Positions 460 through 7,456 of a DNA stretch of 64,000 nt are shown here, one piece after another. The DNA comes from Verrucomicrobiota bacterium. Its GTDB lineage: Bacteria; Verrucomicrobiota; Verrucomicrobiia; Chthoniobacterales; Terrimicrobiaceae. The stretch spans positions 1 through 64,000 of the forward strand of contig JAPLTG010000004.1 in NCBI GenBank assembly GCA_026398255.1. The letters are read 5' to 3'. The position numbers were made by a program, and so were the translations under genes. The notes under the pieces were generated by a model, which was given only the letters and a program-made list of their open reading frames with translations, searched no databases and was not told where the DNA came from. Numbering within the stretch: position 1 is the first letter of the stretch; each line of letters opens with the position of its first letter.

Positions 460-1707
460 TCAAAGACCTTTTTCGACGATCCTGAAAAGATCCGTGTTGT
501 CGAGAAAGCCATGGATTTTTTCGGAACCCGGTCCGGTGGCAACGACCACGGCGTCTTCGGCTGTGCCAATCGCAGCGGCGCGCTTGCTCGCGGCGGGTTC
601 GGTGGATACGGGCCCCTCTGGCGTGACGCGCGTGCCCGACTCGGGGCCGGTGGACCAGGTGATCGATGGCACACCTTGCGCGTTTGTTCCCAAAAGTCCG
701 GCGCCTTTGTCGTTTCGGAAGGGGTATCCATTTAGGCGAAGTCCCCCGACATTTCGCTTTCCGGCGACGATGATCAGCGCGTCTTCGCCCGCATAAGCTT
801 TGGCTTCCCGCACGGCATCATCAAGCGCGAGGAGTTCGCGCAGAGTCCGCTCGCCCTCGTTTTGAGTTCCCGATTTTCCAGCGAGGGCGGCATCGACGAC
901 CAACAAATATCCGCGCTGGTTGTATTGGAGCAATTGGATCGCGTGGCGGACCATCGTGGCGAGCGAAGGCTGGGTGGCGGCCGCCGCGACTTCATCGGCA
1001 AAAGCCAGATTTCCCATGGCGAAAAGGCCGAGAGTTTTTGGGCTGCGCCAGCGCGGGGTTTGCTCGAGTTCCGTCTGCGTCAGGGCCACATCGTAGCCTC
1101 GCTCCCGCATTTCTTGGAGGAGATCTCGTCCATCCTGGCGCCGGCCACCTTGGAGCGTCGGCAAAAAATCCGCCGCGCCACCGCCGAGAAGAATATCGAT
1201 GGTGGGATTCTCCGCGAGCTGCCTGGAGATCGTCATGTAGTCGAGGGGGTCGGAGGTGGAGGCGTAAAAGGCCGCCGGCGTGGCATCCGTGAGCGAGGCA
1301 TTGGAGACAAGGCCGGTAAGGCGACCGCACTGCGCCGCGATTTCCAGAAGATTTGGGAGTTTGGTGTTTCCACTCACCACGCCCAGAGAGCCGTTGTTGC
1401 CCTTGCGGCCTGTGCCGATTGAGGTCGCCGCGGCCGCCCCATCGCAAACAGCGAAATCATTCGCGTGGGTCCTGGCGAGAGCGAGGTAGGGAAAGGACTC
1501 GAGAGCGAGGCGGTGATCCGCGCCACCCTCGTAGTTCCGGGCCGGTGTGAGCACCGATGGAGTCAGGTTGTCCGCTAAAAAAAGAATCACGGCGAATGGC
1601 CGCTGAACGACCCATTTCACGTAAAACACACCTCCAAGTCCGAGAAAAACGAGTAGGCAAAAAAGAGCGAGCAGCCGGTTGCGAAATTTTTTGCTCATGG
1701 AAAACAT
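460..1707 (-). CDS. alkaline-phosphatase-fold membrane-anchored pseudoenzyme
   Basis: A 415-residue protein with a basic N-terminus and one membrane anchor (about residues 11-31), then a domain that aligns by eye with the alkaline phosphatase family. The first metal-binding Asp is kept in FLADN (D46), and DATPAAF (D141, T143) matches the family's DATPAA block. The catalytic Ser motif (normally DSA followed by ATA) reads DGAAAAT at 89-95, so the nucleophile is Gly. The block normally VEGxxIDxAxH reads VDAALAGKSGT (271-281), and the ADH block reads AGK (315-317), so the other metal ligands are absent. The LRLNGYP tail of that block is intact, which argues for true homology. The frame is intact, so it is probably a conserved non-catalytic relative. 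The start at 1707 has a GGGGGA stretch 5 nt upstream; an ATG at 1698 is the alternative. Confidence 0.75.
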   Translation of the reverse strand: MFSMSKKFRNRLLALFCLLVFLGLGGVFYVKWVVQRPFAVILFLADNLTPSVLTPARNYEGGADHRLALESFPYLALARTHANDFAVCDGAAAATSIGTGRKGNNGSLGVVSGNTKLPNLLEIAAQCGRLTGLVSNASLTDATPAAFYASTSDPLDYMTISRQLAENPTIDILLGGGAADFLPTLQGGRRQDGRDLLQEMRERGYDVALTQTELEQTPRWRSPKTLGLFAMGNLAFADEVAAAATQPSLATMVRHAIQLLQYNQRGYLLVVDAALAGKSGTQNEGERTLRELLALDDAVREAKAYAGEDALIIVAGKRNVGGLRLNGYPFRNDKGAGLLGTNAQGVPSITWSTGPESGTRVTPEGPVSTEPAASKRAAAIGTAEDAVVVATGPGSEKIHGFLDNTDLFRIVEKGL

Positions 1708-1747: not shown

Positions 1748-1821
1748 TGCCCTGTGGTGTAATGGTAACACAGTGCCCTTTGGAGGCATTATTCATGGTT
1801 CGAGTCCATGCGGGGCAGCCA
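1748..1821 (+). tRNA. tRNA-Gln (anticodon UUG)
   Basis: A 74-nt cloverleaf with the CCA end encoded. The acceptor strand TGCCCTG (1748-1754) pairs with CGGGGCA (1811-1817). The anticodon stem GTGCC/GGCAT encloses the loop CTTTGGA, placing TTG at 1780-1782. The T arm carries GGTTCGAGTCC. It lies between divergently arranged genes, about 40 nt from the start of the phosphatase-like gene on the other strand. Confidence 0.97.
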
Positions 1822-6190: not shown

Positions 6191-7456
6191 ATGAAAATCC
6201 CATCCCGACTCCTCCTCGCCGCCTTGGCGATCTTCACACCGCTTGCATCCCAGGCGGCCGACAAAAAACCAAACATCCTCGTCATTTGGGGCGACGACAT
6301 CGGCCAGTTCGGAAAAAACCACCTCGGCGACCGCGACGACATGCTCCCGACCAACCACGGCTTCGACGAATTTTTCGGCAATCTCTATCACCTCAACGCC
6401 GAGGAGGAACCCGAGAATCCCGACTACCCGAAGGACCCCGAGTTCAAAAAGAAATTCGGCCCCCGCGGCGTCATCCACAGTTTTGCCGACGGTCGCATCG
6501 AGGACACCGGCCCGCTCACCAAGAAACGCATGGAGACCATCGACGAGGAAGTGAATGAAAAAGCCCTCGACTTCATGGAGCGCTCCGCCAAGGAGGAAAA
6601 ACCCTTCTTCCTTTGGTGGAATTCCACCCGCATGCACATCTTTACCCACCTCAAGGAGGAGTCCGATGGAAAAACCGGCCTCGGCATTTATGCCGATGGC
6701 ATGGTCGAGCATGACGGCCATGTCGGCCAAGTGCTCGCGAAACTCAAGGAACTCGGCCTCGATGAGAACACCATCGTCATGTATTCCTCCGACAACGGCG
6801 CCGAGGCTTTCACATGGCCCGATGGCGGCACTACCATGTTCCGTGGCGAGAAAAACACCCAATGGGAAGGCGGCTACCGCGTGCCCACCTTCATCCGCTG
6901 GCCCGGCGTGATCCAGCCCGGCACCGTGATCAACGACATCGGCGCGCACGAGGACATGCTGCCCACGCTCGTCGCCGCAGCCGGAAATCCCGACGCCAAA
7001 GACCAACTCCTCAAAGGCGCAAAAATTGGCGACCGCTCCTACAAAGTCCACATCGACGGCTACAATCTCCTCCCCGCGCTCCAAGGCGAAGCCGAGTGGC
7101 CCCGCCGCGAATTCATCTACTGGACCGATGACGGCAGTGTCGCCGCGCTCCGCTACGACCACTGGAAAATCACCTTCCTCAAACAAAATGCCCACGGAAT
7201 GCATGTCTGGCAGCAACCCTTCGAGGCACTCCGCGCGCCGATGGTCTCCAATCTTCGCATGGATCCCTTCGAGTTGGCCCAGGACATCGGGATGGGCTAT
7301 GACCGCTGGTATCTCGAGCACATGTTCGTCATCGCGCCAGCCGCCTCGTATGTCGGCAACTGGCTGCAAAGTTTCAAAGAATTCCCGCCCCGTCAGAAGC
7401 CCGGCAGCTTCAATCTCGACCGCGTGATGGAGTCGGTCACCAATTTATCCCAGTAG
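6191..7456 (+). CDS. arylsulfatase-family protein lacking the catalytic segment
   Basis: A 421-residue secreted protein with a signal peptide ending near AQAADKK. The start of the sulfatase fold is present (PNILVIWGDDIGQ, metal-binding Asp pair at 35-36) and so are later blocks (TGLGIYADGMVEHDGHVGQV, YSSDNGAEAFTWPDGG, WEGGYRVP). What is missing is everything between DDIGQ and QFGKNHLGDRD: in full-length relatives roughly 80-90 residues here contain the C/S-x-P-x-R sulfatase signature whose Cys or Ser becomes formylglycine. The reading frame is kept, so the product would fold only in part and should not hydrolyse sulfate esters. GGCCAG at the join (about 6300-6305) could be the microhomology used. 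The divergent AraC gene is a possible regulator. Confidence 0.8.
   Translation: MKIPSRLLLAALAIFTPLASQAADKKPNILVIWGDDIGQFGKNHLGDRDDMLPTNHGFDEFFGNLYHLNAEEEPENPDYPKDPEFKKKFGPRGVIHSFADGRIEDTGPLTKKRMETIDEEVNEKALDFMERSAKEEKPFFLWWNSTRMHIFTHLKEESDGKTGLGIYADGMVEHDGHVGQVLAKLKELGLDENTIVMYSSDNGAEAFTWPDGGTTMFRGEKNTQWEGGYRVPTFIRWPGVIQPGTVINDIGAHEDMLPTLVAAAGNPDAKDQLLKGAKIGDRSYKVHIDGYNLLPALQGEAEWPRREFIYWTDDGSVAALRYDHWKITFLKQNAHGMHVWQQPFEALRAPMVSNLRMDPFELAQDIGMGYDRWYLEHMFVIAPAASYVGNWLQSFKEFPPRQKPGSFNLDRVMESVTNLSQ

Follow-up and report, generated by a model that had tools for sequence, protein, structure and literature searches.

Is a protein with a complete alkaline phosphatase domain, but with neither the nucleophile nor the zinc ligands, an altered enzyme, a relic in decay or a conserved protein with another role? 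This question is raised by an open reading frame of 415 aa on the minus strand (460-1707) of the window, as we call the whole analyzed stretch of 64,000 nucleotides of a verrucomicrobial contig. A preliminary description, made from the sequence alone, had noted that the full frame and the motifs of the fold are kept around a replaced catalytic site, and both observations hold: the ORF is open and of full length in the ORF list of the window, the Pfam profile PF00245 matches over the whole domain (ORF residues 40-413 aligned to profile positions 4-419 of 423; E 1.4e-55, 189.4 bits against a cut-off of 24.4), and the fold is predicted to be intact. A Met common to the relatives is the fourth residue of the ORF, so that translation likely starts at 1698 and yields a protein of 412 aa. 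Residue numbers are counted from this Met unless PhoA numbering is stated. The features of the locus are collected in Table 1.

Table 1. Features of the putative pseudophosphatase locus, in positions of the window; PhoA residues in E. coli numbering.
Feature	Position	Strand	Basis
yceD homologue (PF02620), next gene downstream on the same strand, cut at contig start	1..408	-	E 1.2e-8
Putative pseudo-alkaline-phosphatase CDS, 412 aa, stop included	460..1698	-	conserved Met of relatives; upstream-ATG ORF starts at 1707
G378, replaces His412	565..567	-	PhoA-column alignment
K314 R315, replace Asp369 His370	754..759	-	PhoA-column alignment
Inside block VDAALAGKSGT: D269 (E322), G274 (D327), K275 (K328, kept), T278 (H331)	865..894	-	PhoA-column alignment
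P151, replaces Arg166	1246..1248	-	PhoA-column alignment
G87, replaces nucleophile Ser102	1438..1440	-	PhoA-column alignment
D43, equals PhoA D51, kept	1570..1572	-	PhoA-column alignment
Predicted N-terminal transmembrane helix, residues 3-30	1609..1692	-	AlphaFold2 helix; conservation
tRNA-Gln (TTG), divergent, upstream of the pseudophosphatase gene	1748..1821	+	

In the columns of E. coli PhoA, the window protein has lost what we take to be the nucleophile (S102), the phosphate-binding Arg (R166) and five zinc ligands (D327G, H331T, D369K, H370R and H412G). The change of the Ser in the DSA motif to Gly and the replacement of the zinc-site blocks (VDAALAGKSGT, AGK) had been read correctly in the preliminary description, including the blocks quoted there. 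Retained are D51, D101 (D86), D153 (D138) and T155 (T140) as well as an acidic residue at position 322.

We then read the same columns in 89 distinct near-full-length rows without the canonical site, collected from the order and the class, with identical sequences counted once. The census left out 18 loci with a match of <330 model columns, among them fragments, the loci L137 and L140 of family f37 and a frame-broken copy in genome G056. Read separately, L137 and L140 also proved to be without the site and represent more degraded forms. In G056 (contig C33, a genome of family f12) the pseudophosphatase at L074 and its neighbors is split over several frames, which reflects either a broken copy or sequencing errors. 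Among the 89 rows R166 and H412 are never kept, D327 and H331 are kept in two rows each, H370 in 11, D369 in 16 and S102 in 17, the remaining 72 having no Ser102. None of the five zinc ligands is present in 58 rows and a single one in 31, never more. The rule that defined this class removes only sequences with the complete canonical set and a separate paralogue group; rows with two to four ligands were thus permitted, and their absence is the informative part of the census. What stands in place of the site varies by lineage: position 102 is A, S, Q, T, G or another residue in the relatives' alignment, and the D51 position is N or P in 15 of 19 rows from other orders. The pocket pattern remains stable inside a given family, as in the variants of EDQDTPDRKQDVN found in f8. 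Regarding the check proposed earlier, whether the substitutions are conserved in orthologues, at most one of the five zinc ligands is kept in 89 of 89 rows without a canonical site, but the exact substitutions are lineage-specific and not fixed.

Could the remodeled pocket still serve a purpose of its own? The column of PhoA D101 is invariant in the order, E322D is mostly kept, and D51/E51 and T155 are partly kept, so that the pocket is not free of constraint. Charged residues are moreover paired within the order: of 47 rows with D51, 44 have K or R at 369, and of 23 rows with E51, 17 have R327 (raw row counts, kinship among rows included), a pattern which suggests that basic residues stand in for the lost metals. 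A protein that binds a small anion, a lipid head group or a glycan in this pocket and signals through its membrane helix would account for the basic residues found in place of metal ligands in the window (K314 and R315, adjoining the kept K275), for the family-stable patterns if the ligand is specific to the lineage, and for the pairing, which charge compensation explains equally well. However, the pocket columns vary strongly across the order (entropy of 2.0-2.7 bits at positions 102, 166, 327, 328, 331, 369, 370 and 412); a common ligand cannot be deduced from them, and the mean conservation rank of the 16 columns that once formed the active site is 0.56 (on a scale from 0 for the most to 1 for the least conserved, with 0.5 as average), which speaks against one ligand bound there family-wide; we consider such a sensor rather unlikely. 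Still less probable is a residual or altered enzyme, either metal-free or with another metal, that would use D43, D86, D269, T140 and K275. The retention of D101 and the frequent retention of D51, T155 and an acidic residue at 322 would suit it, but it would have to work without R166 and H412 in every row and without Ser102 in most of them, and in other orders D51 itself has mostly been replaced.

Homologues are widespread in the order, where 169 of 197 searched genomes have a match (cut-off 1e-10); the matches take in a small number of canonical homologues as well as fragments at contig ends, and most matched genomes carry full-length open frames. No match was obtained in some near-complete genomes of the order (families f2 and f5, and the reduced genomes G007 and G017), and the pseudophosphatase is therefore not needed everywhere. 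Among the best 80 of 119 matches, the named relatives belong to Spartobacteria/Chthoniobacterales, including Udaeobacter, Chthoniobacter and Terrimicrobiaceae, the nearest being 99% identical. A family-profile search of the class gave matches of at least 380 bits that start at the membrane helix in 74 of 286 genomes, 42 belonging to the order and 32 to seven families elsewhere in the class; this count rests on score and helix start, the active sites having been read in only part of the genomes. Outside the class, the best score among 194 genomes of the phylum was 203.7 bits, and all 11 loci retrieved there have canonical sites.

In a tree rooted with PhoA, from which the catalytic columns and the N terminus had been removed, the 31 inactive rows form one clade (bootstrap/SH-aLRT 96/90), and a quick tree without the window row gave this clade a support of 93. 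It is nested among canonical enzymes, and its sister is an active subfamily (97/90 for the pair) found in genus g4 of family f1 and in families f3, f9 and f13. This topology agrees with one ancient loss and vertical descent thereafter; the supports are good, not absolute. Most simply, the site was lost once, before several orders diverged, and the gene has since evolved under purifying selection. The latter had been proposed as a check, and the comparison with the nearest relative (L005) indeed gave a dN of 0.008 and a dS of 0.186, corresponding to a ratio of 0.041 (Nei-Gojobori). Ratios range from 0.027 to 0.067 in nine close same-genus pairs, this one included (pS cut 0.6), and from 0.101 to 0.279 in five other pairs below pS 0.6; beyond this value dS is near saturation.

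Decay of this one copy was ruled out by the orthologues without the site, the purifying selection and the single clade. The situation named in advance as speaking against a pseudoenzyme, normal orthologues with decay only here, differs from what we found, as the canonical homologues from genus g4 of the window's family (L077-L079) form part of a separate active subfamily and fall outside the clade. That the family as a whole is a relic under decay or an assembly artefact, as the frame-broken copy in G056 and several genomes with contig-end fragments only might suggest, is highly improbable and already contradicted by open full-length frames in most genomes, dN/dS of about 0.04, the retained fold and independent assemblies, one of them named and 99% identical. 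With a probability of roughly 93%, judged from these alignments and trees, we consider the gene to encode a conserved pseudoenzyme. Since the site was lost long ago and the gene has nevertheless been kept intact in many lineages, its job is probably non-enzymatic. The pseudoenzyme with another role that had been suggested at the outset agrees with this in each part that could be tested, namely the shared loss, the purifying selection, the fold and the membrane helix.

The fold was examined in an AlphaFold2 model of a single chain (55 family members), which reached a mean pLDDT of 91.2 and a pTM of 0.89. Structural comparison gave a Z of 51.1 and an rmsd of 1.5 over 371 residues with the human placental enzyme (1zeb) and a Z of 45-48 with E. 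coli PhoA, in line with the intact alkaline phosphatase fold expected in the preliminary description. Even for L128, from a strongly degraded branch with the site PDASGADALGPYS, the fold is still predicted (pLDDT 82, Z about 43). Like the known PF00245 enzymes over the whole domain and in its predicted fold, the window protein differs from them in the lost site and in a predicted uncleaved membrane helix that is joined directly to the first strand. The nearest active relatives by tree, the EAGLPDKACH subfamily (L077-L079, L131, L139 and L142), occur in the same order and have a similar C-terminal region, but their canonical residues are complete (DDSGTREDKHDHH), and the N termini of L077-L079 look, as read from sequence, like cleavable signal peptides. 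In the model of the window protein the helix passes into the first strand at residue 36, which would leave no room for signal cleavage; the membrane attachment claimed earlier would accordingly be provided by the helix itself.

The start of this helix is positively charged (SKKFRNR), one of its faces is conserved, with N7, A11, C14, L15, F18, G22, F25 and W29, and its mean entropy is 1.31 bits compared with a median of 1.58 bits for the protein. As a control we used MreC, which also has one N-terminal helix, because MltG is absent from the searched genomes of the order: none of 57 genomes of this order has a match to MltG/YceG (PF02618), compared with 8 of 14 control genomes. MreC was searched in 57 genomes with 30 loci found, and the comparison was made in the 17 genomes whose MreC could be paired with a pseudophosphatase row, giving 121 distant pairs. 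Over these pairs the identity of the pseudophosphatase is 51% in the helix and 49% in the domain, compared with 23% and 53% for MreC, and the pseudophosphatase helix is the more similar one in 120 of the 121 pairs, which are not independent. The conserved positions lie on one face with a best period of 100 degrees; this signal is modest, as 807 of 20000 shuffles (about 4%) were as strong. Together, the conservation of the helix and its one-face pattern point to a helix-helix contact.

How might a protein of this kind act? On our reading, it belongs to a family of membrane pseudophosphatases with a single helix that is old and has been passed on vertically in the window's class of Verrucomicrobiota. 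The positively charged N terminus would be cytoplasmic and the single uncleaved helix would span the inner membrane. The dead domain would then lie on the periplasmic side, some five residues away from the bilayer, and the end of the sheet that once was catalytic would point away from the membrane. The protein would act by binding and not by catalysis, the alkaline phosphatase fold providing the stable body of a scaffold. Known alkaline phosphatases are dimeric. The conserved helix face may pair with itself or with another membrane protein, so that the protein would serve the cell envelope as a scaffold or adaptor. For this mechanism, a scaffold or adaptor that is tethered to the membrane and acts by way of its helix, we see about even odds.

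A works-like analogy, and only that, may be drawn to YejM/PbgA/LapC. In PMC9356133 it is described as a protein of the enterobacterial inner membrane whose periplasmic domain has a fold of the wider hydrolase class and which functions through binding to LapB; its inactivity is disputed, a Mg-dependent phosphatase activity being reported in a passage of PMC7576196. YejM/PbgA/LapC has five transmembrane helices and a sulfatase-type periplasmic domain and binds LapB and lipid A, whereas the window protein has one helix (3-30) in the model and belongs to PF00245, not PF00884. A further step would be to assign the class-wide, single-origin pseudophosphatase with its sequence-specific helix a core role as regulator or scaffold in the envelope of Verrucomicrobiota, similar to YejM in its way of working and evolved independently from a PhoA-type enzyme; at present we regard this as speculative and unlikely.

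The gene neighborhood was surveyed at 57 loci with readable neighbors, with eight loci of active homologues set aside and L039, L041, L043 and L058 left out as the gene was not called there. No universal neighbor was found among the 57. The gene gpmI, which we take to be another member of the alkaline phosphatase superfamily, is divergent and head to head with the pseudophosphatase in 14 loci (all 11 of f8, both of f4 and the only one of f3); these are all 14 readable loci of the three families (e.g. L061:2352-3902). In 11 of the 57 loci rsmA lies directly downstream on the same strand (f39, f44, f30 and f37; e.g. L123, L128, L129 and L137), and f44 and L123 have, on the upstream side, a protein that matches Ppx/GppA domain III or HD (Pfam was run for L123 and L129). 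The yceD gene and the tRNA pointed out earlier as neighbors are both present in the window, but neither is conserved beyond close relatives, L067 being the only other locus, of those read, with yceD downstream. We rejected an assignment of function from neighbors, as gpmI and rsmA are each confined to certain families and neither these two nor yceD and the Ppx/GppA-or-HD protein are general. Elsewhere in the window, a sulfatase-like protein (6191-7456, plus strand) matches PF00884 only from profile position 95 onward; in it WGDDIG is directly joined to QFGKNH, and a segment seems to be missing that is presumably the usual one with the catalytic Cys/Ser.

The genome of the window (estimated completeness 100%) contains two genes of PF00245; a canonical zinc site is present in neither, and PhoX and PhoD gave no match. 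The second gene (L002:1471-2739, contig C15) belongs to the same Pfam family and is also non-canonical, but it falls into a separate clade (100/100) together with L089, L091, L144, L155, L280 and L282-L290; L002 satisfied the class rule for a lacking site and was placed in the paralogue group by hand. This subfamily keeps Ser102, R166, D51, E322, D327 and D369 and has all three zinc His swapped (H331N, H370S, H412D), the same in every complete copy read; its members may be active enzymes whose metal site is free of histidine. Of the 26 genomes of the window's family, 25 contain a PF00245 match. The three genomes of g4 were the only ones in which a canonical site was seen, the other copies being of the pseudophosphatase or the paralogue type and a few of them partial.

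These findings bear on the way in which such genes are counted. Passages in two studies of freshwater Verrucomicrobia (PMC5615132, PMC5673642) infer phosphorus acquisition from alkaline phosphatase gene annotations; they are cited for annotation practice, leaving aside the kind of their PF00245 genes. As the family scores far above the Pfam cut-off, phoA counts credit bacteria with phosphatases they may lack, and proteins such as that of the window should, judging by their sites, not be counted as phosphatases. Members of the family occur widely among bacteria of soils and lakes (Chthoniobacterales, with Udaeobacter, among the best 80 of 119 matches), and a limited literature search returned no description of an inactive PF00245 lineage. 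Pseudoenzymes as such are already known; this family offers a clean case of a large enzyme fold retained after the loss of its catalytic site, and a testable subject for the role that a dead phosphatase may play in a cell envelope.
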